Below are positions 10,394 through 53,388 of a stretch of DNA of 64,000 bases, one piece after another. The translations under genes and the position numbers were made by a program. Where the stretch lies: NCBI RefSeq assembly GCF_900114385.1, contig NZ_FOSW01000006.1:1-64000 (forward strand), given 5' to 3'. Position 1 is the stretch's first letter. Each line of letters opens with the position of its first letter. The notes beneath the pieces are model-generated. The model searched no databases, was not told the origin of the DNA, and saw only the letters and a program-made list of their open reading frames with translations. This stretch comes from Geodermatophilus ruber (GTDB lineage Bacteria; Actinomycetota; Actinomycetes; Mycobacteriales; Geodermatophilaceae).

Positions 10394-11548
10394 GTGGACT
10401 TCAACTACGACAGCGAGCAGAACGACCTCCGCGAGGCCGTCGCCGGTCTGCTGGGGCGCGCCTACAGCGACAGCGAGCAGCGCCGGAAGGTGGTCGCGTC
10501 CGACCCGGGCTTCGACGAGAAGACCTGGTTCCGGCTGGCGGAGATGGGCCTGCTCGGGCTGCCCTTCGCCGAGGAGCACGGCGGCATGGGCGCCGGGCCG
10601 ATCGAGGTGGCGATCGTCGCCGAGGAGATCGGCCGGGTGCTGGCGCCCGAGCCCTTCGTCGAGGCGGTCGTGCTGGCCGGCGGGCTGGTCGCCGCCGTCG
10701 GCACGGGTGCGCAGCGGGGCGAGATCCTGGCCGGCATCGCCGCCGGCACGACCCTGGCCGCCGCGGCGCTCGCCGAGCCCGGCACCCGGTGGAGCCCGGC
10801 GGCCGCCGGCGTCACCGCCACCGCGGACGGCGGCGCCTGGCGGCTGACCGGCGTCAAGGAGCCGGTACCCAACGGCGCGCGGGCCGACGTGCTGGTCGTC
10901 AGCGCCGTCACCGGCGGGGGGACGGCGCTGTTCGTCGTCCGCGGCGACGCCGAGGGCCTCACCCGCACCGGCTACCGCACCCACGACGGCGGCCGGGCGG
11001 CCCACGTCCGCTTCGACGGCACCCCGGCCGAGCTCCTCGGCGAGGGCACCGGCGACCGCACTCCTGACGTCGAGCGGACACTCGCCGTCGCCCGGATCGC
11101 CTACGGCCACGAGGCGGTCGGGGCCATGGACACCGCGCTGCGCACCACGGCGGAGTACCTGAAGACCCGCAAGCAGTTCGGGATCACCCTGAACAAGTTC
11201 CAGGCGCTGACCTTCCGCGCCGCCGACATGTACGTGTCGCTGGAGCTGGCCCGCAGCACCGCGCTGTGGGCGTCGATGGTGGTCGACGCCGGCGGGGACG
11301 TCGTCGCCGCGGCCGACCGCGCCCGGCTGCAGACCAGCCGCGCCGGCCGGCACATCGGCAAGGAGGCCATCCAGCTGCACGGCGGCATCGGCATGACCGC
11401 CGAGTACCAGGTGGGCCACTACACCAGCCGGCTCACCGCGATCGACCACCTGCTCGGCGACGGCGACTGGGCCCTGGCCCGCCTGGCCGACGGGGTCGGC
11501 GAGTACGAGACGGTCGACCCGCTGGGCGCGCCCTACACCCCCGCCTGA
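10394..11548 (+). CDS. Acyl-CoA dehydrogenase, second of a pair
   Basis: 384 residues from GTG. The C-terminal half holds the family landmarks: IAYGHEAVGAMDTALRTTAEYLKTRKQFG, the helix QALTFRAADMYVSLELARS and LHGGIGMTAEYQVGHYTSRL. The central FAD-contacting loop is weaker (GTRWSPAAAG), as in the partner subunits of heteromeric FadE enzymes. The 5-bp spacing to the previous gene indicates an operon and probably one complex. A terminator follows 37 bp after the stop. Confidence 0.88.
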   Translation: MDFNYDSEQNDLREAVAGLLGRAYSDSEQRRKVVASDPGFDEKTWFRLAEMGLLGLPFAEEHGGMGAGPIEVAIVAEEIGRVLAPEPFVEAVVLAGGLVAAVGTGAQRGEILAGIAAGTTLAAAALAEPGTRWSPAAAGVTATADGGAWRLTGVKEPVPNGARADVLVVSAVTGGGTALFVVRGDAEGLTRTGYRTHDGGRAAHVRFDGTPAELLGEGTGDRTPDVERTLAVARIAYGHEAVGAMDTALRTTAEYLKTRKQFGITLNKFQALTFRAADMYVSLELARSTALWASMVVDAGGDVVAAADRARLQTSRAGRHIGKEAIQLHGGIGMTAEYQVGHYTSRLTAIDHLLGDGDWALARLADGVGEYETVDPLGAPYTPA

Positions 11549-11584
11549 CGCGGTATCCCGAAACGGCGGGCCGCGGCAGCCACT

Positions 11585-11625
11585 GTGGCCCCAGGGGCCG
11601 CTCCATGAGCGGCCCCTGGGGCCAC
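11585..11625. terminator. Perfect 19-bp hairpin between convergent operons
   Basis: Bases 11585-11603 pair perfectly with 11607-11625 around a 3-base loop (CAT). It sits between the stops of the second acyl-CoA dehydrogenase and the HDOD gene, so it can act in both directions. Confidence 0.88.
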
Positions 11626-11638
11626 GATGGCCTCGCGG

Positions 11639-12493
11639 CTACTGGCCCAGCATCGCCAGGCGCAGCTCCTCGGCCTCCGCGCGCACCTTGTCGATGACCG
11701 GCGGGAGCGCGTCCTCCCGCAGCAGGCCGCACGTCAGCCGCTCGACCGGCACCGGCTCGTCGTCCGTGGCCAGCCGCGCGGCGACCTCCAGAGCACCCCG
11801 CAGCAGCGCGCTCTCCTCCGCCCCGAGGTCGTCGACGCCGGTCAGCGGCGCCACCATGCTGCGCGGGAAGCCCCACTGCTCGAGGGCCACCGCGGTCAGC
11901 CGGAGTGCGTGGATGCCGTACCGGCGGACCTCCGCCGCCCGGCGGGCCGCGGTGGTCCGCTCGGTGGCGGTCAGCGCGGCGTAGCCCTCCGGGTCGTCGT
12001 GGTGCAGCAGCGCGATCCCCAGCGGGGCGAGCAGGCCCAGGCACAGCGCGTCCTGCGGCCGCTCGCCGAACCGGGGGGCGAGCGTCGAGGCAGCGAGGCC
12101 CACGCTGGTGCTCACCCGCCAGAAGTTCGCCGGCAGCCGGGACTCGTCGTCCAGGTCGGTCAGCGCCACCGTCGCCATCGTGCGGACGGTGGTGAACCCG
12201 ACGACGGTCACCGCGAACTGCAGCGAGGTCACCCGGCCGCGCATGCCGAAGTAGGCGGAGTTGGCCAGCTTCATGACGCGACCGGCCAGCGCGACGTCGC
12301 TGCCCAGGATCTGCGCCAGCTCCCGGGCGCTGGTGTCGTCGGAGTTGGCCACCGACACGATCTGCGCGGCGACCGGCTTCTGGGCGGCCATCGTGTCGAT
12401 GCTGGCCAGCACCTTCTCCACGTCGAAGGACGGCGCGGCGGTCAACATCGGCGGCACATCGCCTCCAGCGCGGGCACGGGGGTTCGGGGTCAT
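11639..12493 (-). CDS. HDOD-domain signalling protein
   Basis: 284 residues from the ATG at 12493, which overlaps the stop of the GGDEF-EAL gene as ATGA. The HDOD fold runs from about residue 40 to 230: [40 protein letters not shown], then [19 protein letters not shown] and AALEQWGFP-like helices. HDOD domains resemble HD phosphohydrolases but usually lack the full metal site; they occur with cyclic-di-GMP enzymes and regulators. Tight coupling to the GGDEF-EAL gene suggests a shared signalling role. Confidence 0.85.
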
Positions 12494-43141: not shown

Positions 43142-45496
43142 TCACTCCTCTCCGTCGCGCGGGGCGCTCCCGGCCACGAGCACCTGGCCGAGGGCGAGCC
43201 CCCCGTCGTTGGGCGGCACCACGCGGTGCCGCAGCACGGTCAGCCCGTCCTCCCGCAGCCCCCGGCCGGCGGCGGACAGCAGGACGGCGTTCTGGAAGAC
43301 CCCGCCGGTCAGCCCGACCACGTCGCAGCCGGTGTCGCGGCAGACGTCTCCGGCGAGGCGGCGGACGAGGTCGGCCAGCGCCGCGTGGAAGCGGGCGGCC
43401 ACCACGGCGGGCGGCACGCCGGCGCGGACGTCGTCGGCGACCGCGCGCACCACGGGGCCGGGGTCGGCGGTGCGCACCGGGCCCGGCCGGACCGGGAAGG
43501 CGTAGCGCCGCTCCCCCGGGTCGGTGCCGCGGGCGGCGGCCTCCAGCTCGATGGCCGCCTGCGCCTCGAAGTCGACCACCTGCCGGATCCCGGCCAGCGC
43601 GGCGACCGCGTCGAAGAGCCGGCCGACGCTGGAGGTGGGCACGCAGCCCAGCCCGGTGGCCAGCTGGTGGGCGAGCACCCGCCGCTCCGGCGCGGGGCAG
43701 GCGGCGACCGGTGGCAGGTCCGGGTGCCAGGGCACGCCGGCGGCCGCCAGGTGCGCCAGCGCCATCCGGTACGGCCGGTCGACGGTGGCGTCCCCGCCGG
43801 GCAGCGGCACGTAGGCCAGGTGCGCCCGGCGCGTGAACCCGGCCCCGTCGGCCAGCAGCACCTCCCCGCCCCAGACCGCGCCGTCGGTGCCGTAGCCGGT
43901 GCCGTCGAACGCGACGCCCACGATCGGCCGGTCGGCGGGCCGGCCGGACTCGGCGATCAGCGAGGCGACGTGCGCGTGGTGGTGCTGCACCGACCGCACG
44001 CCCTGCTTCCCGGCTCGCCGCTGCGCCCACGCCCGGGACCGGTAGCCCGGGTGGGCGTCGGCGGCGACCACCCGCGGCCGGACGGCGGTGAGGTGCTCGA
44101 GGTGCCGCTCGGCGGCGGTGGCGGTGTCCAGCGTGGCCAGGTCGTCCATGTCGCCGATGTGGCCGGACAGCCACGCCCGCCGGCCCGCGGCCAGGCACAG
44201 GGTGTTCTTCAGCTCCGCCCCGGCCCCGAGCACCGGCGGGACGGCGACGGGGAGCCGCACCGGCAGCGGCGCGTAGCCCCGGGACCGGCGCACCGGCAGC
44301 TCCTCGCCGTCGACGATCCGCACCACCGAGTCGTCGCAGGGCACGTGGATCGGCCGGTCGTGCCGCAGCCACCCGTCCGCGAGCGCGGCCAGCCGGGTCA
44401 GCGCCTCGCCGTCGTCGGCGACGATCGGCTCCCCGCCGAGGTTGCCCGAGGTCATGACCAGGGGCCCGGGCCCCGGCCCGTCGGGTCCGGGGCCCAGCAG
44501 CAGGTGGTGCAGCGGGGTGTAGGGCAGCAGCAGCCCGAGGTCGGGGTTGCCGGGGGCGACCGCGGCGGCGGCCGCCGCGGTCGCCCGGCGTGGGAGCAGC
44601 ACGATCGGCCGGGCCGGGCCGGTGAGCAGCCGGGCGGCGGCGTCGTCCACCTCGGCCAGCGCCCGGGCGGCGGGCAGGTCGGCCACCATGACGGCGAAGG
44701 GCTTGGCGCCGCGGCGCTTGCGCCGGCGCAGCGTCCCGACGGCGGCGGCGTCGCCGGCCCGGCAGGCCAGGTGGTAGCCGCCGATGCCCTTGACCGCGAG
44801 GACGCCGCCGCCGCCGAGCAGGGCGCGCGCGGCGGCCAGCGCCGGCTCGTTCCCGGGCACCGGCTCACCGTCGGCCGGCCGGAACTCCAGGCGCGGGCCG
44901 CAGTCGCGGCAGGCGATCGGCTGGGCGTGGAAGCGGCGGTCGGCGGGGTCGGCGTACTCCCGGGCGCAGCGCGGGCACATCGGGAACCCGGCCATCGTGG
45001 TCGTGGCCCGGTCGTAGGGCAGCGCGGTGGTGATGGTGAACCGCGGGCCGCAGTTGGTGCAGGTGGCGAAGGGGTGCCGGTAGCGGCGGTCGCGCGGGTC
45101 GCGGACCTCGCGCAGGCAGTCGGCGCAGGTGGCGACGTCCGGGGCGGCCAGCGTGGGCTCGGCCGCCGACCCGGCGGCCGAGCGCTCGATGGTGAAGCCG
45201 TGCCCGCCCGAGGGCGGCAGGTCAGCGGTTCGGACGTCGTCGATCACCGCCAGCGGCGGGGCGCCGGGCACCAGCCGGGCGGTGAACTCCGCGACGGCGC
45301 CCGGCGTGCCCTCCACCTCGCAGACCAGGCCACCGGCGTCGTTGCGGACCGTGCCGGCCAGCCCGAGGCCGGTGGCCAGCCCGTGCACGTAGGGCCGGAA
45401 CCCGACGCCCTGGACGACGCCGGACAGCACCAGCCGCCGCCGGATCCCCGCCGGGGGCGCCGGGGTGGTCAGCCGGGACGGCCCGGTCGTGGTCAC
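43142..45496 (-). CDS. hypF: Carbamoyltransferase HypF
   Basis: 784 residues from a GTG that overlaps the 34-aa gene's stop (GTGA). HypF makes the carbamoyl adenylate used for the cyanide ligands. Domains in order are an acylphosphatase ([20 protein letters not shown], about 20-105), two zinc fingers with paired CxxC ([41 protein letters not shown]; about 125-215), a YrdC/Sua5 domain ([12 protein letters not shown]; about 225-400) and a Kae1-like C-terminal domain with [10 protein letters not shown] and [16 protein letters not shown]. All parts are intact. Confidence 0.97.
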
Positions 45497-45597
45497 ATCC
45501 GCCGGATCCTCAGGTACCGCACCAACGACGGGTACTCGTGCCGCAGCGCCACCGCGGCTCCCAGGCCGGCGGCCAGCAGCATCGGGCGTGCCTTCAC
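45493..45597 (-). CDS. 34-residue membrane peptide (DUF6893-like) in the hydrogenase operon
   Basis: A GTG with GAGGAG 6 bases upstream opens a frame of 34 codons that ends as GTGA with hypF. It has a Lys-Ala-Arg start, one short hydrophobic helix (PMLLAAGLGAAVAL) and a basic end, [16 protein letters not shown]. This matches the DUF6893 small-protein pattern (hydrophobic helix, then PSLxRYLRIxRM). Tight spacing on both sides argues that it is a real gene. Its role in hydrogenase biogenesis or membrane docking is unknown. Confidence 0.72.
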   Translation of the reverse strand: MKARPMLLAAGLGAAVALRHEYPSLVRYLRIRRM

Positions 45598-45619: not shown

Positions 45620-45823
45620 TCAGCCGGGCGGCAGGTTGGGCATCGCGGCCACGATCGGGTTGCGCCGCGACGGGTCGATGCCGGTGGAGCGCCGCGCGTC
45701 GACGGTGCCGTCCGGGTGGAATCCGGGCTCGTTGTGGAAGGCGTCGCCCTCGTTGCCCTCCGGCACACCGGGTACGTGCGCCGGCGCGTCGGGTGCCACG
45801 TCGGGCCTGCCCACACGGATCAT
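45620..45823 (-). CDS. 67-residue hydrogenase-cluster protein
   Basis: The ATG overlaps the DUF5947 stop (ATGA). The protein is hydrophilic and Pro/Asp-rich: HVPGVPEGNEGDAFHNEPGFHPDGTVDARRSTGIDPSRRNPIVAAMPNLPPG. The block ARRSTGIDPSRRNPI followed by MPNLPP resembles small proteins that accompany group 1h-like hydrogenases in other actinobacteria, from memory of such clusters. No fold, metal site or membrane helix is seen. Its place between structural and hyp genes suggests an assembly or attachment role. Confidence 0.7.
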   Translation of the reverse strand: MIRVGRPDVAPDAPAHVPGVPEGNEGDAFHNEPGFHPDGTVDARRSTGIDPSRRNPIVAAMPNLPPG

Positions 45824-46470
45824 CGCTGGTTCCCTCCTCGGTCGTCCCTGCCGCTGTCCACCGAGGCCGCGCCGGGTGCCCGGCCGGCCAGCTCGGCGAA
45901 GAACCCCTCGATGGCCGGCCAGACCCGGTCGCCGCCGGACAGCCCGGTCCAGGTGCGACGCACCAGCGCCACCAGCCGGTAGCAGTCGTCGATCGGCACG
46001 ATCCAGCGCTCCCGCGCGCCGCGGGCGGTGTTGACCAGCAGCGCCTGCACGTCGGGCTGCAGCGCACCCAGTTCGGGGGACTCGGCCGCCAGCCGGGCCC
46101 AGACGTCGTCGGCGACGTCCCACCGGGTCGCGCCGAGCGGGCTCGGGTAGTGCGCCTCCACCGACCCGTCCGGCCGCCGGACGAAGAAGGCCAGGCCGAC
46201 GGGCACACCCAGCTCGCCCGGCTCGGCGCCGCCCAGCCGCCGCCGCTGCTCGGGCACCAGCCGGTAGTGGCCGCGGCCGGCCGCCTCGCGGGAGAACAGC
46301 AGGGCGCAGGCCCGGCAGGCGCACATCAGGTCCGCGCGCTCCTGGTCGACGAGGTGCCGGTGCCGTTCGGCCAGCGGCGCGGCGCACAGGTCGCAGCGCG
46401 GGCTCTCCTCGGCCCGGGTCGCCGCCCGGCGGACGACCCGCTCCAGCGCCGGGGTGGGCACGGCGGTCAC
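45820..46470 (-). CDS. DUF5947 hydrogenase-associated protein
   Basis: 216 residues from GTG, overlapping the NifU-like gene's stop (GTGA). A four-cysteine cluster, CDLCAAPL at about 26-33 and CACRACALLF at about 50-59, suggests a zinc ribbon or Fe-S site. The body (GLAFFVRRPDGSVEAHYPSPLGATRWDV, then RGARERWIVPIDDCYRLVALVRRTWTGLSGGDRVW) is the DUF5947 fold, found with actinobacterial hydrogenases. The function is unknown; electron transfer or cofactor insertion are guesses. Confidence 0.85.
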   Translation of the reverse strand: MTAVPTPALERVVRRAATRAEESPRCDLCAAPLAERHRHLVDQERADLMCACRACALLFSREAAGRGHYRLVPEQRRRLGGAEPGELGVPVGLAFFVRRPDGSVEAHYPSPLGATRWDVADDVWARLAAESPELGALQPDVQALLVNTARGARERWIVPIDDCYRLVALVRRTWTGLSGGDRVWPAIEGFFAELAGRAPGAASVDSGRDDRGGNQR

Positions 46471-46985
46471 GGCGTGCCCGCCGGGCGGCGCAGGGCGTCC
46501 AGCGGCACGAACGCCGGGGCCCGCGCAGCCGCCACCGGCCGGACGTCGGCCAGCTCCGGCGCCACGGCGAGGACCGCCTCCCGGACGACGTGCGCGGCCT
46601 CCGCCGTGGTGTGCCCGCAGCCGGCCGGCAGCCGGACGGCCGCCACGCCGTCGGCGACGCCGACCAGCGAGACCTCCCCGCCGAGGCCGGGGTGCAGGCC
46701 CTCGAGCACCCGCTCGATGCGCCGCTCGACCGGCTCGGGGTGGATGCCGTGCAGGACGAGCAGGTGCCCCAGCAGCGGATCGCCCAGCATCACCTCGACC
46801 GCGGCGGGCGGCGCGGCGGCCAGCGCGCGGGCCAGCGCCTCCCCGTAGACCTCCGCGAGCGCGGTGACCGCCTCCATCGCCAGCGCACCGGCCGGCCCGG
46901 GCGTGGCCTCCACCTGGGCGAGCAGGTCGTCCAGCCGGGTCAACCGCTGCTCGACCTGCGGGTCGTCGAGCCGCTGATCAGCCAT
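46467..46985 (-). CDS. NifU-like protein of the hydrogenase cluster
   Basis: 172 residues whose start overlaps the large subunit's end by 8 bases. The C-terminal half resembles the NifU C-terminal domain (VERRIERVLEGLHPGLGGEVSLVGVADGVAAVRL), which normally carries CxxC for Fe-S cluster transfer. Here the site reads LPAGCGHTTAEAAHVV, with one cysteine where two are expected. It may bind a cluster as a dimer or may have lost that activity. It probably serves cluster loading of the small subunit. Confidence 0.82.
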   Translation of the reverse strand: MADQRLDDPQVEQRLTRLDDLLAQVEATPGPAGALAMEAVTALAEVYGEALARALAAAPPAAVEVMLGDPLLGHLLVLHGIHPEPVERRIERVLEGLHPGLGGEVSLVGVADGVAAVRLPAGCGHTTAEAAHVVREAVLAVAPELADVRPVAAARAPAFVPLDALRRPAGTP

Positions 46986-48771
46986 GGCTGGCGCCGAACA
47001 TCGGCGAGTGCGCCTGCTGCAGGGTCCGCCCGCCCCCGAGGTACATGTGCACGCCGCACGGCAGGCAGGGGTCGAAGCTGCGGACGGCCCGCATGATGTC
47101 GATGCCCCGGAAGTCGTCCGGGCCGTTCTCCTCGAACAGCGGCATGTCCTGGATGGCGTCCTCGTACGGCCCCGGCGTGCCGAACCGGTCCCGCGGGCTG
47201 CCGTTCCACGGGGTCGGCGGGTACGGGTGGTAGTTCGCGATCATGCCGTCGCGGATCACCAGGTGGTGGGAGAGCACACCGCGCACGGCCTCGTGGAAGC
47301 CGACGCCGATGGCCGCGTCGGGCACCTCGAAGTCCTGGAACACCTTCAGGTCCCCGCGGCGGAGGCCGGCCATCGCCCGCTCCAGGAAGTAGAGGGCCAT
47401 GGCGCAGGCGTAGGCGATGAAGTAGACCCGCGCGCGGTCCCGCTCGATCGCGTTGGACCACAGCGGGATCCGCCACTCGAGGGTCTGCTCGGGCAGCTGG
47501 TGGCTCCTCGGCAGGTGGATCTGCACGCTGTGCCCGGTCGACCTCACGTACGGGGTGTCCACGATGTCGGCCAGCGCGGTCGTGTACAGGCGGGCGTAGG
47601 CGCCCCCACCGGTGTCGAGGGCGAGGTGCTCGCCGGTCTCCGGGTGCAGCCAGCGCGGGCTCATCACCCAGCTGTACTTGTCCCCGAAGTCCCGCTTGCC
47701 GGGCGCCGGCAGGGTCGTCTGGTTCCACGGGTGGCGCATGTCCACGGGGTTGCCGAGCGGGTCGTGGGTGACGAACGGCTCCTCGCCGACCCAGTCCTCG
47801 TAGTACGAGCTGCCCAGCAGGATGCGCATGCCGAGGTTGATGTCGACCAGGTCGGTGGTCACCAGCCGCCCGTCGACCACCACGCCGGGCGTGACGTACA
47901 TGGCCTTGCCCCACGCGTTCATCGACTCGTAGCGGTAGTCGACGACGGCGGGGTCCTGGAACGCGCCCCAGCAGCCGAGCAGCACCCGGCGCCGGCCGAC
48001 CTCCTCGTAGCCGGGCAGCGCCTCGTAGAAGAAGTCGAAGACGTCGTCGTTGAGCGCGACCGACTTCTTCACGAAGTCGAGCACCTGCAGCAGCCGGGAG
48101 AGGTAGTCGGTGAACAGCGTCGGGGTCGGCATCGTGCCCACCCCGCCGGGGTAGAGCGTCGAGGGGTGCACGTGCCTGCCCTCCATCAGGCAGAACATCT
48201 CGCGGGTGATCCGGCTGACCTTCAGCGCCTGCTTGTAGGTCTCCCCCTCGAACGGGTTGAACGAGCGCATGATGTCGGCGATCGTCCGGTAGCCGTGCAC
48301 GTCGGCGTGCGGTGCCGGGGTGTTCTCCGCCCGGGCCAGGACGCTGGGATTGGTGTCCTTGACCATCGCCTCGCAGAAGTCCACGAAGATCAGGTTGTCC
48401 TGGAAAATGGTGTGGTCGAAGATGTACTCGGCCGCCTCGCCGAGATTGATGATCCATTCCGCCATCGGCGGGGTCTTGATGCCGTAGGCCATGTTCTGCG
48501 CGTAGATCGAGCAGGTCGTGTGGTTGTCGCCGCAGATCCCGCAGATCCGGCTGGTGATGAATCCGGCGTCGCGCGGGTCCTTGCCCCTCATGAAGACCGA
48601 GTAGCCGCGGAACAGCGACGAGGTGCTGTGGCACTCGGCCACCCGCTGGTTGGGAAAGTCGATCTTCGTGTAGATCCCCAGGTTCCCGACGATGCGGGTG
48701 ATCGGGTCCCACGACATCTCGATGAGCTGGCCCGGCTTCTCGACTGCCGGTGCCCGGTCGGTGGCGGTCAT
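46978..48771 (-). CDS. hhyL: [NiFe]-hydrogenase large subunit, group 1h (Hhy)
   Basis: 597 residues. The four nickel-binding cysteines are in L1 RICGICGDNH (Cys77, Cys80) and L2 DPCLPCGVH near the C-terminus. The 22 residues after CGVH are the extension that the maturation endopeptidase removes once nickel is in place. The L1 and L2 wording matches the actinobacterial (group 1h, formerly group 5) enzymes, which oxidise trace H2 in air. It oxidises H2, passing electrons to the small subunit. It follows hhyS by 58 bp and overlaps the NifU-like gene. Confidence 0.95.
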   Translation of the reverse strand: MTATDRAPAVEKPGQLIEMSWDPITRIVGNLGIYTKIDFPNQRVAECHSTSSLFRGYSVFMRGKDPRDAGFITSRICGICGDNHTTCSIYAQNMAYGIKTPPMAEWIINLGEAAEYIFDHTIFQDNLIFVDFCEAMVKDTNPSVLARAENTPAPHADVHGYRTIADIMRSFNPFEGETYKQALKVSRITREMFCLMEGRHVHPSTLYPGGVGTMPTPTLFTDYLSRLLQVLDFVKKSVALNDDVFDFFYEALPGYEEVGRRRVLLGCWGAFQDPAVVDYRYESMNAWGKAMYVTPGVVVDGRLVTTDLVDINLGMRILLGSSYYEDWVGEEPFVTHDPLGNPVDMRHPWNQTTLPAPGKRDFGDKYSWVMSPRWLHPETGEHLALDTGGGAYARLYTTALADIVDTPYVRSTGHSVQIHLPRSHQLPEQTLEWRIPLWSNAIERDRARVYFIAYACAMALYFLERAMAGLRRGDLKVFQDFEVPDAAIGVGFHEAVRGVLSHHLVIRDGMIANYHPYPPTPWNGSPRDRFGTPGPYEDAIQDMPLFEENGPDDFRGIDIMRAVRSFDPCLPCGVHMYLGGGRTLQQAHSPMFGASHG

Positions 48772-48829: not shown

Positions 48830-49891
48830 TCACCGCCGGTACCGGGGGTCGTAGCCGGAGGTCAGCACGTCGCGGTTGTGCCGCCACTTCGGTTCCTTGT
48901 TGACGGTGCGGTTGGTGATGCCGCGCAGCCGGCGGGTGAAGGCGCCGTAGGGCTTGATCAGCACCGAGGAGAGGCTGGCGCCGGGCGGCATGTCCATGAA
49001 CGGCATGAACTTGTCGGGGAAGCCCGGCATGGTGCAGGCGATGCAGATCCCGCCGACGTTCGGGCAGCCGCCCACGCCTCGCATCCAGCCGCGCTTGGGC
49101 ACGTTGCAGTTGACGACCGGCCCCCAGCAGCCGATCTTCACCTGGCACTTGGGCGAGTTGTAGTCCGCGGCGAAGTCGCCCTGCTCGTAGTACCCGGCGC
49201 GGTCGCAGCCCTCGTGCACGGTCCGGCCGAACAGCCACTGCGGGCGCAGCTGGTCGTCCAGCGGCGGCGGGGGCGCGGCACCGGCGGCGTGGTAGAGCAC
49301 CCAGGTGAGGGTCTCCATGAAGTTCTCCGGCTGCACCGGGCAGCCCGGGATGTTGACGATCGGCAGGCCGCCGGTACTGCGGTAGTCCCACCCCAGGTAG
49401 TCGGCCAGGCCCATCGACCCGGTCGGGTTGCCGGCCATCGCGTGGATGCCGCCGTAGGCGGCGCAGGTGCCCACGGCGACGGTCGCCCACGCCCGCGGGG
49501 CCAGCCGGTCCAACCACCAGTTCAGGGTCAGCGGCTCCCCGGTCTGCGGGTCGTTGCCGAAGCTGGTCCAGTAACCCTCGCCGTTGATCTTCTCGTTCGG
49601 GATCGAGCCCTCGATGACGAGGATGAACGGCGTCAGCTCGCCCTCGGCGGCCGCGCGGAACGGCGCCAGGAACTCCTCACCACCGAGCGTCGGGGAGAGC
49701 ACCTTGTTGTGCAGGTGGACCGTCGGCAGGCCGGGCACCACCCCGGTGACCACGTCCTCGATGCTGGGCTGGTCGCAGGCGGTCACCGAGACCGTGTCCC
49801 CGTCGCAGCTCATCCCCTCGGAGATCCAGAGGATGTGCACCTCGTCGAACCCGGCCTCGCGCGCCGGGGTCGCCTCGCGCGTTGCGGTCAT
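48830..49891 (-). CDS. hhyS: [NiFe]-hydrogenase small subunit, group 1h (Hhy)
   Basis: 353 residues. The proximal cluster motif is GMSCDGDTVS (Cys29, Asp32), where most hydrogenases have CTGC; an Asp ligand at this point is known from the oxygen-insensitive actinobacterial hydrogenase of Cupriavidus. Further cluster cysteines are in AVGTCAAYGG, VNIPGCPVQPENF, HEGCDRAGYY, KCQVKIGCWGPVVNCNVP and GGCPNVGGICIACTMPGFPDKF. There is no twin-arginine signal and no C-terminal anchor, so the enzyme is cytoplasmic or peripherally membrane-bound. It lies 68 bp after the protease gene. Confidence 0.95.
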   Translation of the reverse strand: MTATREATPAREAGFDEVHILWISEGMSCDGDTVSVTACDQPSIEDVVTGVVPGLPTVHLHNKVLSPTLGGEEFLAPFRAAAEGELTPFILVIEGSIPNEKINGEGYWTSFGNDPQTGEPLTLNWWLDRLAPRAWATVAVGTCAAYGGIHAMAGNPTGSMGLADYLGWDYRSTGGLPIVNIPGCPVQPENFMETLTWVLYHAAGAAPPPPLDDQLRPQWLFGRTVHEGCDRAGYYEQGDFAADYNSPKCQVKIGCWGPVVNCNVPKRGWMRGVGGCPNVGGICIACTMPGFPDKFMPFMDMPPGASLSSVLIKPYGAFTRRLRGITNRTVNKEPKWRHNRDVLTSGYDPRYRR

Positions 49892-49959: not shown

Positions 49960-50478
49960 TCAGCCGCGGACGCCGTCCTCCTCCCCCGGCCGGGCGGCCG
50001 CGCCGGACACCACCTCGTGCACCAGTGCGACGGCGGGCCCGACCGCCGCCGCGACCGGCGGTGACAGGTGCATGGCCGGGTGCACGTCGGCCGGTGCGCA
50101 GCCGACCACCAGCACGCGGGCGACCGAGCCGCCCAGGTCGCCGAGCAGGTGGAGGACGGCGTCGGGGTCCAACCCGTGCCCGTCCACCACCGCCGCGGAC
50201 CCCGCGGGGGCGTGCCCGCCCGCCCCGGGGGCCGGCACCTCCAGGACGGCGAGGGTGCCGGGCGGCCCGTCGAGCGGGACGGCGTCGACGAGGACGACGG
50301 TGTCGTGGGCCCCGTCGAGCAGGTCGTAGGCGAGGTGCACGCCGCGGATGCCGTAGTCGACGACGTCGACGCCCGGGGGCAGGGCCGCCGGGTCGATCCG
50401 CCGGACGACCTCGACGCCGAACCCGTCGTCGCCGAGGAAGACGTTGCCGATGCCGGCGACGAGCACCCGGCCGGTCAC
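49960..50478 (-). CDS. Hydrogenase maturation endopeptidase (HyaD/HoxM-like)
   Basis: 172 residues from a GTG that overlaps the stop of the upstream gene (GTGA). LVAGIGNVFLGDDGFGVEVV is the family signature, with the nickel-sensing Glu or Asp replaced by Asp in GDDG. VDYGIRGVHLAYDLLDGAHDTVVLVDA and GCAPADVHPAMHLSPPV with the conserved histidine complete the fold. It should cut the C-terminal extension of HhyL. Confidence 0.92.
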   Translation of the reverse strand: MTGRVLVAGIGNVFLGDDGFGVEVVRRIDPAALPPGVDVVDYGIRGVHLAYDLLDGAHDTVVLVDAVPLDGPPGTLAVLEVPAPGAGGHAPAGSAAVVDGHGLDPDAVLHLLGDLGGSVARVLVVGCAPADVHPAMHLSPPVAAAVGPAVALVHEVVSGAAARPGEEDGVRG

Positions 50479-51965
50479 GGCCCCGGCTCGTGCCCGAGGG
50501 GACGCAGCTCCTCCGGGGCGAAGTAGCGGTAGCGGCCCGACGCCCCGGCCAGGTCGGCGGCGGGGTCGTCCTCGAGGGTCACCGCCACGTGCCGGCCGCC
50601 GTCGACGTCGAGGAACACCGCGGCGACGCGGGCGCTGCGCCCGTCGAGGAAGCGGTCCTGCGGATCGGTCCCGCGCAGGCGCGGCCGCAGCCGCACCCGC
50701 GACCCCCGGGCCACCCGCACGCCGTCGACGACCACCGCGTCGCTCTCCGGCGAGACGGCGGCGTCGGCGCCGGGGTCCCACCAGGGCAGCGTGCCGGCCT
50801 CGGCCTCGCCACCGGGAGGGACCGGGCGCAGCGACCGGATCGCGCCGTGCAGCCGGTTCCAGACCTCGCCCGGCAACGCGTCGACCCGGTCGAGGATGGC
50901 GGCGGCGCGCGGATCGGTGGCCCGGGCCTCACGCTTCTCCTCGTCGGTGAGCGTCAGCGTGCGCAGCGACAGGATCTCGTCGATCTCGCCGGAGTCGAAC
51001 AGCTCCCCCGGGCTCTCGGGGGCGATCCGCGGATGGTCGTACAGGATGATCGGCGAGGAGAGCAGCACGTCACGCTCGCCGGGCGCCCCGGCCAGCACGG
51101 GGAAGGTGTGCTCGTTCCGGCAGGCCCGGGCGGCCGCGGCCGCCTCCTCCGGCGGCTCGAGCAGCGAGACGAACGCGCCCCCGGTGACGCCGGCGAGGCA
51201 GTGCGCGGCGACCAGCGAGCGCCGGACCGCCTCGTCCCGCGGGGCGTCCGGCGGCAGCTCGGCGGCACCGGTGGTGTTCGCCAGCACCAGGCGCAGCCGC
51301 CGCAGCGGGCCCGGTGCGGGCGTCGGGCTGGTCTCCAGGAGCAGCTCGCCGCGCAGGGGGCACCGGCGGCGGACCAGCCGGCCGGCACCGCCGTCCAGCA
51401 GCTCTACCTCCTCCCCGCCGGGCACCTCGACGGGGACCCGCCGGCCGGTGGCCAGGTCGCCGACCCGGGCGGCGACGGCGACCTCGCGGGCGACGGCCTC
51501 GTCGAAGGTCAGCCAGCGCCGGTCGCCGGCCTCCAGCGCGTCGACCGTGACCCAGCCGTCGGCCGCGGCTCGCTGGACGGACCGGTGCTGCACCTGCAGG
51601 AAGCGCACGCACACGTGCAGCCACGCCTCGTCCAGGGCGGCCTCGTCGGCTGCCTCGAGCAGGCACTCGGTCAGCTGGTGCCAGGCGTCGGCGGAGCCGG
51701 CGACGGTGGCGCGGACCGACCCGCGAGCCTCCAGCCACGGGCGGGGGGCGAGCACGCCGAACTGCCAGCGCACGCGGTTCTTGCCCGACGAACGCCGGTA
51801 CGGGTAGAGCAGGTAGCCCTCCCAGAGGACGGCGTCCGCGACGGCGCGGGCCCGCGCGAGACCGGCGGGAGGTGCGGGGGTGTCGCGCCCGGACGGCGGC
51901 CGTGAGGCATTCCGGGGAGCACCGCTGGGCAGCGGGGTCCCGGTCCGTCCGGCCGCCGGCGTCAT
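50475..51965 (-). CDS. Uncharacterised 496-residue hydrogenase-operon protein
   Basis: It runs from the ATG at 51965; no start has a strong ribosome site, and the first 35 residues look disordered. The conserved-looking core begins ARAVADAVLWEGYLLYPYRRSSGKNRVRWQFGVL (about 38-71), wording I associate with proteins seen beside actinobacterial hydrogenase genes. Other blocks are LLSSPIILYDHPRIAPESPGELFD, LRTLTLTDEEKREARATDPRAAAILDRVDALP and a C-terminal small beta domain (RYRYFAPEELRPLG). No membrane helix, cysteine cluster or nucleotide motif is seen. It lies between hypB and the protease, in the maturation half. Its function is unknown. Confidence 0.8.
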   Translation of the reverse strand: MTPAAGRTGTPLPSGAPRNASRPPSGRDTPAPPAGLARARAVADAVLWEGYLLYPYRRSSGKNRVRWQFGVLAPRPWLEARGSVRATVAGSADAWHQLTECLLEAADEAALDEAWLHVCVRFLQVQHRSVQRAAADGWVTVDALEAGDRRWLTFDEAVAREVAVAARVGDLATGRRVPVEVPGGEEVELLDGGAGRLVRRRCPLRGELLLETSPTPAPGPLRRLRLVLANTTGAAELPPDAPRDEAVRRSLVAAHCLAGVTGGAFVSLLEPPEEAAAAARACRNEHTFPVLAGAPGERDVLLSSPIILYDHPRIAPESPGELFDSGEIDEILSLRTLTLTDEEKREARATDPRAAAILDRVDALPGEVWNRLHGAIRSLRPVPPGGEAEAGTLPWWDPGADAAVSPESDAVVVDGVRVARGSRVRLRPRLRGTDPQDRFLDGRSARVAAVFLDVDGGRHVAVTLEDDPAADLAGASGRYRYFAPEELRPLGHEPGP

Positions 51966-52092: not shown

Positions 52093-52914
52093 TCAGACAC
52101 CTGGGCGCGCGGGGCTGTCAATCACCGGGAGCGCGGGGCCGACGGCGGCCGCGGCACGGGTGCGCAGCCAGCCGAGCCAGTCGGCCATCCCGTCACCGCG
52201 GGTGGCCGACACGGGCAGCACGGTGATCTCCGGGCGCAGCCGGCGCAGCAGGTCCAGGCAGCGGGCGAGGTCGAAGGACACGTAGGGCAGCAGGTCGACC
52301 TTGTTGACCAGCACCACGTCGGCGGTGCGGAACATGTGGGGGTACTTGGCGGGCTTGTCCTCGCCCTCGGGCACCGACATCACCACGGCGCGGCAGGTCT
52401 CGCCCAGGTCGAACAGCGCCGGGCAGACGAGGTTGCCGACGTTCTCGACGACGACCAGCGTGCCGTCGGCCGGGTCCAGCGCGGCCATGGCCCGGTGCAG
52501 CATGCCGGCGTCGAGATGGCAGCCCGAGCCGGTGTTGACCTGCACGACCGGCGCCCCGGCCGCGCGCACCCGCTCGGCGTCGACGACGGTCTCCTGATCG
52601 CCTTCGACGACGCCGACGGGCCGGCCGAGCGTGCGGATGGTGCGCTCGAGCAGCGTCGTCTTCCCCGAGCCCGGCGAGCTCATCAGGTTCACCACGACCA
52701 GGCCCCGGGCGGCGAACTCGGCCCGGTTGCCTGCGGCCAGTTCCTCGTTGCGGGAGAGCACCGCCTCCTCGAGGCGGACGGTGCGGGACCCGCCGTCCAC
52801 CTCGGGGGCGTGGTGGGGGTGGCCGTGGTGCGCGGGGTCGTGGGCGGCGGAAGGCCCGGCGTCGAGCCGGGTGAGCCGCGCGCCGTCGTCGCCGCACCCG
52901 CAGGTTCGGCACAT
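52093..52914 (-). CDS. hypB: Hydrogenase nickel-insertion GTPase HypB
   Basis: 273 residues. The N-terminal metal motif CRTCGCGDDG (high-affinity nickel site CxxCGC) is followed by a histidine-rich stretch, AAHDPAHHGHPHHAPE, that can store nickel. The G domain has the P-loop SSPGSGKTTLLERT, EGDQETVVDAER, NVGNLVCPALFDLGE and the specificity motif NKVDLLP. It delivers nickel to the large subunit with HypA. It starts 1 bp after the hypA stop. Confidence 0.97.
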   Translation of the reverse strand: MCRTCGCGDDGARLTRLDAGPSAAHDPAHHGHPHHAPEVDGGSRTVRLEEAVLSRNEELAAGNRAEFAARGLVVVNLMSSPGSGKTTLLERTIRTLGRPVGVVEGDQETVVDAERVRAAGAPVVQVNTGSGCHLDAGMLHRAMAALDPADGTLVVVENVGNLVCPALFDLGETCRAVVMSVPEGEDKPAKYPHMFRTADVVLVNKVDLLPYVSFDLARCLDLLRRLRPEITVLPVSATRGDGMADWLGWLRTRAAAAVGPALPVIDSPARPGV

Positions 52915-52915
52915 G

Positions 52916-53260
52916 TCAGGCCACCTCCACGGCCGTGACGACGAGATCGTCCCCGCCGCGGACCCGCACGTCGGTGCTGCCGCACCGGCAGCCCAGCAGC
53001 AGGTCCTCCACGGCGAAGACGGCCCCGCAGGAGTTGCAGCAGCCGACCCCGGGGGGTTCGTCGATCTCCAGGCGGGCCCCGGCGACCGGGGTCCCCGCGG
53101 CGACGAGGTCGAAGCAGAACCGCACGGCGTCGGGCACGACCCCCGACACGCGGCCGATCCGCAGGTGCACCGCCGTGATCCGCGCGTCGCCGATCCGCGC
53201 ACCGCCGACCTGCTCGACGACGGCGTCCACGACGGCCTGGGTGATCGCGAGCTCGTGCAC
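52916..53260 (-). CDS. hypA: Hydrogenase nickel metallochaperone HypA
   Basis: 114 residues from GTG, giving the conserved MHELAITQAV start with the nickel-binding His2. GGGAG lies 7 bases upstream. The zinc site is CCNSCGAVF with GCRCGS. LRIGRVSGVVPDAVRFCFDLV is typical of HypA. It is the first gene of the hydrogenase operon; the 128-bp gap upstream is where its promoter should lie, but no clear -35/-10 is visible. Confidence 0.95.
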   Translation of the reverse strand: MHELAITQAVVDAVVEQVGGARIGDARITAVHLRIGRVSGVVPDAVRFCFDLVAAGTPVAGARLEIDEPPGVGCCNSCGAVFAVEDLLLGCRCGSTDVRVRGGDDLVVTAVEVA

Positions 53261-53388
53261 CGGCGGCTCCCCGGTGGGCCCGCGGGCGACCGGGCACCAC
53301 CGCGGCCGGGGGCGTGGGCCCCCGCCCGTGCCGTTCGTCCTAGACCCGCGGGCGGCCGCGCGCAAGGGCGGTGGCGCCCGGCGTGCGG

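Follow-up and report, generated by a model that had tools for sequence, protein, structure and literature searches.

The window analysed here, a 64,000-nucleotide stretch of the Geodermatophilus ruber genome, carries on its minus strand a group 1h (Hhy) [NiFe]-hydrogenase cluster in which a protein of 496 residues is encoded between hypB and the gene for a maturation protease (Table 1). The gene runs from an ATG at 51965 to a TGA at 50475–50477, beginning 127 nt beyond the stop of hypB at 52093, and its own stop overlaps the GTG start of the protease gene as GTGA. Downstream on the same strand are HhyS, HhyL, a NifU-like protein, a DUF5947 protein, a DUF6893-like peptide and HypF, followed by HypC, HypD and HypE. 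The original prediction had the limits and length of the reading frame exactly, the strand being added here, and was right in placing the gene after hypB and in overlap with a protease gene, which can now be specified as HycI-type.

Table 1. Features of the hydrogenase cluster in the window and predicted domains of the 496-residue protein.
Feature	Coordinates	Strand	Basis
Gene of the 496-residue protein, a two-domain, group 1h (Hhy)-linked accessory	50475..51965	(-)	ORF and translation, family alignment, loci
HycI-type hydrogenase maturation protease	49960..50478	(-)	PF01750, E 2.6e-11
HhyS, [NiFe]-hydrogenase small subunit	48830..49891	(-)	Family profile match
HhyL, group 1h large subunit	46978..48771	(-)	Family profile; best PDB match HofG 5aa5_C
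NifU-like protein (HhyE-type position)	46467..46985	(-)	PF01106 E 0.025, below cut-off
DUF5947 protein	45820..46470	(-)	E 5.7e-67
DUF6893-like 29-residue hydrophobic peptide	45493..45582	(-)	E 6.6e-4, below cut-off
HypF	43142..45496	(-)	Pfam/NCBIfam
HypB, upstream neighbour	52093..52938	(-)	Pfam/NCBIfam
HypA, start approximate	52916..53308	(-)	Pfam/NCBIfam
Predicted jelly-roll domain, residues 48–307, matching DrmA 7s9v_A 148–423	51045..51824	(-)	Z 10.5 and 10.1; PADLOC PDLC02573
Conserved N-domain folded alone, residues 35–378, including a helical tail to the invariant LHG..R motif	50832..51863	(-)	AlphaFold model
Predicted SH3/KOW-like barrel, residues 404–494	50484..50756	(-)	AlphaFold model, fold matches, separate gene elsewhere

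The reading frame is a genuine gene, beyond chance, because homologues with 41–76% identity keep both its frame and its position. Its first residues are less certain, since the alignment starts at residue 1 in just two of ten homologues, the window's own protein and L002, its nearest relative (76% identity). As originally described, the protein is poor in cysteine (5 of 496 residues); its maximum 19-residue hydropathy is 1.81, and it has no obvious transmembrane stretch or recognisable cofactor motif. In an alignment of 12 family members reaching to Cupriavidus and Methylocystis, the core block that had been singled out as conserved is indeed among the most conserved, with 11 residues (E, G, Y, L, Y, P, Y, K, N, R and G) invariant in all 12. 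Conserved positions include EGYxLYPY, KNxxRW, H255, C282 and H373, and across the family two His never vary and a single Cys is near-invariant, being kept in 80 of 81 members.

Linkage to group 1h hydrogenases

A genome-wide scan returned at least 569 relatives of the 496-residue protein, and the loci examined below are biased to close relatives because only the best 80 were kept. Within the flanks fetched for these 80, HhyL was detected in 79, as was HhyS, and DUF5947 and the NifU-like protein each in 77; in 79 of 80 loci, as in the window, the gene is encoded beside hhyS/hhyL. The single locus without HhyL (L070) is a 3.2 kb contig that carries DUF5947 and DUF6084.

The same association is seen when genomes are surveyed. 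A homologue is present in ten of 61 related genomes. Each of the ten also has HhyL on that contig, two of them with just a fragment of it where the contig stops. The gene is present in 28 genomes of a 296-genome Actinomycetota sample, and all 28 have either group 1h HhyL or, next to the gene, other genes of an Hhy cluster. HhyL with at least 58% identity occurs in 25 of the 28, and in 23 of these 25 the HhyL contig also has a match to the 496-residue family (secondary and partial in G161 and G321); in the remaining three positives (G247, G273 and G347) the gene has DUF6084 and the protease as neighbours and the contig stops a short way off, which leaves the gene restricted to group 1h genomes in this sample. 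Conversely, HhyL at 58% identity or more over more than 500 residues is present in 24 genomes of the sample, and the gene is found in 23 of them, the exception being G101, whose contig ends 1.5 kb past HhyL.

The gene is absent from 11 genomes, two from the 61-genome set and nine from the 296-genome sample, in which the only full-length match is a HhyL relative of 39–43% identity; among the nine, G188 carries in addition a 73-residue piece of HhyL with 62% identity. Full-length relatives at 38–43% identity occur in 12 genomes of the larger sample, comprising these nine and three of the 28 positives. HhyL fragments without the gene are found in G165, G188, G242 and G284, and in the 61-genome set HhyL matches without the gene occur in G032 (contig ending inside HhyL), G017 and G058 (39%) and G042 (34–42%, short). 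The gene therefore follows group 1h and not [NiFe]-hydrogenases in general. This is the close co-occurrence that the original prediction had proposed to score; homologues mostly unlinked to hydrogenases, named there as the contrary outcome, were looked for and did not appear.

The full-length large subunits at 38–43% identity (in G017, G058, G134, G139, G346 and others) apparently constitute a separate hydrogenase group that lacks this accessory protein. At another locus (L107, G165:C7), a HhyL fragment covering profile positions 371–489 is overlapped by a HypE fragment in a 7.9 Mb genome with no match to the 496-residue family, which looks like what remains of an Hhy cluster since lost. Within the window's genus the cluster has a patchy distribution: 2 of 26 genomes have the gene, both with group 1h HhyL.

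Homologues are found in 12 plasmid records, including Cupriavidus necator pHG1, Methylocystis parvus, a Mycobacterium intracellulare plasmid and several Streptomycetaceae; coverage outside Actinomycetota extended to two proteobacterial genera, Cupriavidus and Methylocystis. Annotated homologues carry the name "hypothetical protein". A tblastn search with the Methylocystis N-domain (E<=10) returned, besides these 12 records, four weak Pseudomonas or uncultured plasmid matches (E 0.9–9), which we regard as noise.

Gene order in three plasmid regions, from Cupriavidus, Streptomyces and Methylocystis, is hhyS, hhyL, a NifU-like or unnamed ORF, DUF5947, DUF6084, the 496-residue gene and the protease. 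Presence or absence of DUF6084 splits the group 1h clusters among the best 80 of at least 569 relatives into two sets. Type A (30 of the 80) contains DUF6084, in 29 cases directly before the 496-residue gene; type B, made up of the other 50 loci and the window, does not, and each of the 50 has hhyS on the gene's own strand, downstream of it. On the HhyL tree, built from those 68 of 84 rows that had full-length partners, a single change accounts for the difference, on a branch with support of 100/100. The window's genome also gave no DUF6084 match, in a search whose controls stayed silent as well.

A 4-nt overlap with a candidate in-frame protease start occurs in 44 of the 53 loci, among these best 80, in which a protease was detected. 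In 30 of the 80 no protease is adjacent, and in 29 of these 30 HhyS lies downstream, its start within 211 nt in 23 and at 579–639 nt in six; the thirtieth has HhyS upstream. The description of the gene as lying inside a maturation block is therefore correct for the window, but it captures only a local arrangement. The 496-residue gene is thus retained where DUF6084 (missing from 50 of the 80) and the neighbouring protease (missing from 30) are not.

Two of the six loci with the longer spacing were examined, and in each a hemerythrin HHE gene (PF01814, E 6e-14 and 1e-16) fills the gap to hhyS (L036, about 11310–11858; L072, about 11571–12170). A related ORF is present in 17 of the best 80 loci, 16 of them type B; in 14 of these 17 a rough position test puts it between hhyS and the 496-residue gene. 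In some Hhy clusters the hemerythrin-like protein may be an accessory with a link to O2 or redox state. The DUF6893-like short peptide, hydrophobic and then with a basic tail such as RRYIKIEKM, is a candidate membrane anchor; as a replacement for DUF6084 it was rejected, because it occurs in 72 of the best 80 loci and in both types.

Domain architecture and resemblance to DrmA

The protein matches no Pfam or NCBIfam family at E<=1, and to that extent the earlier statement that no domain can be named holds; both parts can nevertheless be placed by fold, the N-terminal two thirds as DrmA chassis-like and the C-terminus as SH3/KOW-like. An AlphaFold model built from 81 sequences has a mean pLDDT of 86.2 and a pTM of 0.73, and the N-domain folded alone reaches 87.7 and 0.88. 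With this model, obtained for the protein alone, the core can be placed after all: it matches the N-terminal jelly roll of DrmA, the class 1 DISARM helicase.

The two-domain reading of the model is supported by the occurrence of the N- and C-parts as separate genes. In six genomes of one family (f32; loci L105, L106, L109, L110, L111 and L115), two adjacent ORFs meet the 496-residue profile at about positions 3–334 and 359–456, in the order N-part, C-part, protease. At the three junctions that were read, the N-part ends in a stop codon and the C-part has its own adjoining ATG or GTG.

The N-domain model aligns with DrmA 7s9v_A at Z 10.1 (196 residues, 4.7 Å) and with 7s9w_A at Z 10.0, the next entry being at Z 4.8, and 7s9v_A is also the only Foldseek match to the PDB at E<=1e-3. 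Foldseek itself superposes the two poorly (TM 0.36 by query, rmsd 12.9 Å), and we regard the predicted fold match as partial. Lower pLDDT (58–67) is found at model residues 21–30 and 51–60, and the autoinhibitory trigger loop of DrmA spans residues 176–232, a juxtaposition that reflects pLDDT only and no loop alignment.

Profile comparisons point in the same direction. The PADLOC DrmA profile PDLC02573 matches 32 of 81 members at E<=1e-3 (best 5.9e-8) and, in the 12-member set, nine at E<=10 (best 2.2e-7); the window protein's own match is weak (E 7.6e-4). The family matches examined lie within positions 79–303 of the 1018 in the profile, and one longer match pairs residues 68–292 with profile positions 81–301. 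Ten other proteins or pieces of the Hhy cluster gave no PADLOC match at E<=0.1. HMM matches of this strength are not specific by themselves, given that a type II methyltransferase model is matched by 2 of 81 members (best 1.1e-4) and a type I specificity model by 1 of 12 (0.012). Searched directly with hmmsearch, actinobacterial DrmA ORFs gave the family no match better than E 0.76, and HMM–HMM comparisons were weak, at E 0.038 and 0.48, when the DrmA alignments were mixed or motif-trimmed; a later, cleaner comparison gave E 0.009, the best of ten families (the nine others 0.10–0.85), a match between sequence profiles that we treat as supportive only. Searches for DrmA in the phylum (246 genomes) and in one genus (also 246) brought up no DrmA of the clade modelled by PDLC02573; the matches listed were mostly to the helicase region, with a few members of the 496-residue family among them, and five ORFs scanned from that search scored far higher with other PADLOC DrmA models than with PDLC02573. 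Taken together, homology of the N-domain to the jelly-roll region of DrmA is likely, and this view rests mainly on the modelled fold.

Several other matches were set aside as chance: hyaluronate lyase in the PDB (E 0.028), DUF7092 (0.058) and scattered Pfam matches of individual members (best Phage_TAC_7, 0.022, in 4 of 12). PHROGs gave no match at 0.01.

The C-domain resembles many SH3/KOW-like barrels, with Z up to 8.0 and, for the KOW domains of Spt5/NusG, 6.4–8.0; by the structure-comparison tool's own caution, Z under 8 may reflect merely a common arrangement. No Pfam family scores above its cut-off, and the nitrile hydratase entries stand at Foldseek E 0.018 and above with TM of 0.24 or less and no Pfam match. 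The barrel is too common a fold to imply a function.

A possible assembly scaffold and its alternatives

We propose, with a probability of about 0.5, that the 496-residue protein is a dedicated, non-enzymatic Hhy accessory in which a jelly roll homologous to the DrmA chassis is joined to an SH3/KOW-like barrel, and that it serves most likely as an assembly scaffold. The jelly roll would cradle HhyL and/or HhyS soon after their synthesis, and the SH3-like barrel would dock a partner, perhaps the protease, HhyS or another Hhy accessory protein. Such a scaffold might act around the removal of the HhyL C-terminal extension and the joining of the subunits; the sequence of Cupriavidus HofG (5aa5_C), which stops at residue 575 of the 597 of HhyL, is consistent with that extension being removed. 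What the analysis shows is the gene, its linkage to Hhy, the two domains, the DrmA-like fold and the lack of any helicase family match; we infer the binding to HhyL/HhyS, the stage of action and the departure from the mature enzyme. The original interpretation, a scaffold for the high-affinity enzyme or a regulator of its assembly, is as a whole partly supported.

Profile searches of PDB sequences with the protein (E<=10) brought no 5aa5 chain, and it is therefore not in the solved Cupriavidus enzyme. Absence from a crystal is weak evidence, but it favours a transient role over that of a permanent structural subunit of mature Hhy, which would dock the enzyme to the membrane or a partner or hold the relay proteins HhyE and DUF5947 against HhyS. 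To this second role, which we consider the less probable of the two by a clear distance, the close linkage to hhyS/hhyL would be well suited, as would the position of hhyS downstream on the same strand in 50 of 50 type-B loci and within 211 nt in 23 of those without an adjacent protease (both among the best 80 of at least 569), and the C-domain is similar to small SH3 barrels found on redox complexes, such as PetP and chain E of photosystem I, which we take to be PsaE; the hydropathy of the protein and its lack of a recognisable cofactor motif speak against it. The protein's co-divergence with HhyL (Pearson 0.83) is as expected for inheritance as a unit and, with no unlinked control gene in the comparison, does not demonstrate interaction; that it falls below the values for NifU (0.877) and DUF5947 (0.915) counts against the scaffold.

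The frequent four-base overlap with the protease gene, together with the order shared by the Cupriavidus, Streptomyces and Methylocystis plasmids, would suit an adaptor that presents HhyL to the HycI-type protease, but a protease-coupled role is weakened by the 30 of the best 80 loci that keep the gene with no protease adjacent, and we think it doubtful. Still more improbable is a regulator or nucleic-acid-binding protein for hhy expression that has kept a DNA-related role of DrmA or KOW domains. The DrmA-related N-domain and the C-domain's likeness to Spt5/NusG KOW domains would fit such a role, but SH3/KOW barrels are common at such Z, the window protein matches no DNA-binding family, and the RecA domains, which according to the DISARM structure paper (PMC9142583) are straddled by the DNA bound to DrmA, are absent here. 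The DrmA profile and fold matches might finally suggest a phage-defence protein that sits in a hydrogenase cluster by chance, which we judge very improbable. The protein has no SF2 helicase RecA1/RecA2 core and no helicase family match in Pfam or NCBIfam, and without a helicase it is not a DISARM protein; no helicase, DrmB (DUF1998) or methyltransferase family was found among the cluster proteins scanned (part of the window's ORFs), all of which are hydrogenase-related or DUF5947, DUF6084 or DUF6893; and the linkage is to Hhy genes.

Returning to the assembly scaffold, we suggest tentatively, at rather less than even odds, that it is obligatory and that it and the DISARM helicase platform are one homologous domain. 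In DISARM this domain would hold two motor domains and a partner; in Hhy it would occur without them, fused to or split from an SH3-like barrel, and hold hydrogenase subunits. If so, a domain would be shared between immunity and energy metabolism, and high-affinity hydrogenase would have a scaffold specific to it. The structure paper reports no significant structural homology outside the RecA domains of DrmA (PMC9142583), and the relationship proposed here would provide an independent relative for that region. A preprint on YprA helicases describes class 1 DISARM helicases as having a jelly-roll domain next to the trigger loop (PMC12458937); the word "hydrogenase" has 0 occurrences in it.

Hydrogenases of the group 1h kind scavenge atmospheric H2 and are the primary sink in the hydrogen cycle, with the handing on of electrons described as unresolved (PMC6883350). 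One unexplained ORF of their clusters now has a domain assignment, and this assignment, the natural N/C split, the conserved residues and the close linkage make its role directly testable, the split marking where constructs should be cut.

Comparison with known systems

Open-access literature yielded no paper containing both DrmA and hydrogenase as words and, among the matches listed, no report giving the fold or function of the 496-residue protein. Two papers mention ORFs of unknown function, namely four in the Cupriavidus cluster, PHG066–069 (PMC4377017), and four CDS next to hhyL in methanotrophs (PMC12319191). The order of genes in a microarray table (PMC5445863) suggests MSMEG_2715 as the Mycobacterium smegmatis counterpart, MSMEG_2714 being the other candidate. 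The hhaABC naming in a Thermomicrobium paper (PMC6776052) could not be tied to the gene.

Judged by gene order, the Cupriavidus homologue is PHG069 (H16_RS31865), in the hofKG cluster of the actinobacterial hydrogenase of Cupriavidus necator. It is homologous to the window protein over the conserved length, with 41% identity, and like the window gene it lies before the protease; it differs in following DUF6084, whereas the window cluster has no DUF6084 and its gene is upstream of hhyS. HypA–F and the HycI-type factors are encoded beside the window gene, but the protein has no match to their families, in agreement with the original view that it is not a known Hyp factor.

The likeness to DrmA (PDB 7s9v, 7s9w) is one of fold, with Z of about 10 over 179–196 residues, and of a repeated but weak profile match. 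DrmA has RecA motors and DrmB and methyltransferase partners, whereas the 496-residue protein, among the neighbours scanned, has none of these and carries an SH3/KOW-like barrel instead, the C-terminal 90 residues having the same predicted arrangement as PetP, the nitrile hydratase beta subunit, the Spt5/NusG KOW domains and photosystem I chain E.
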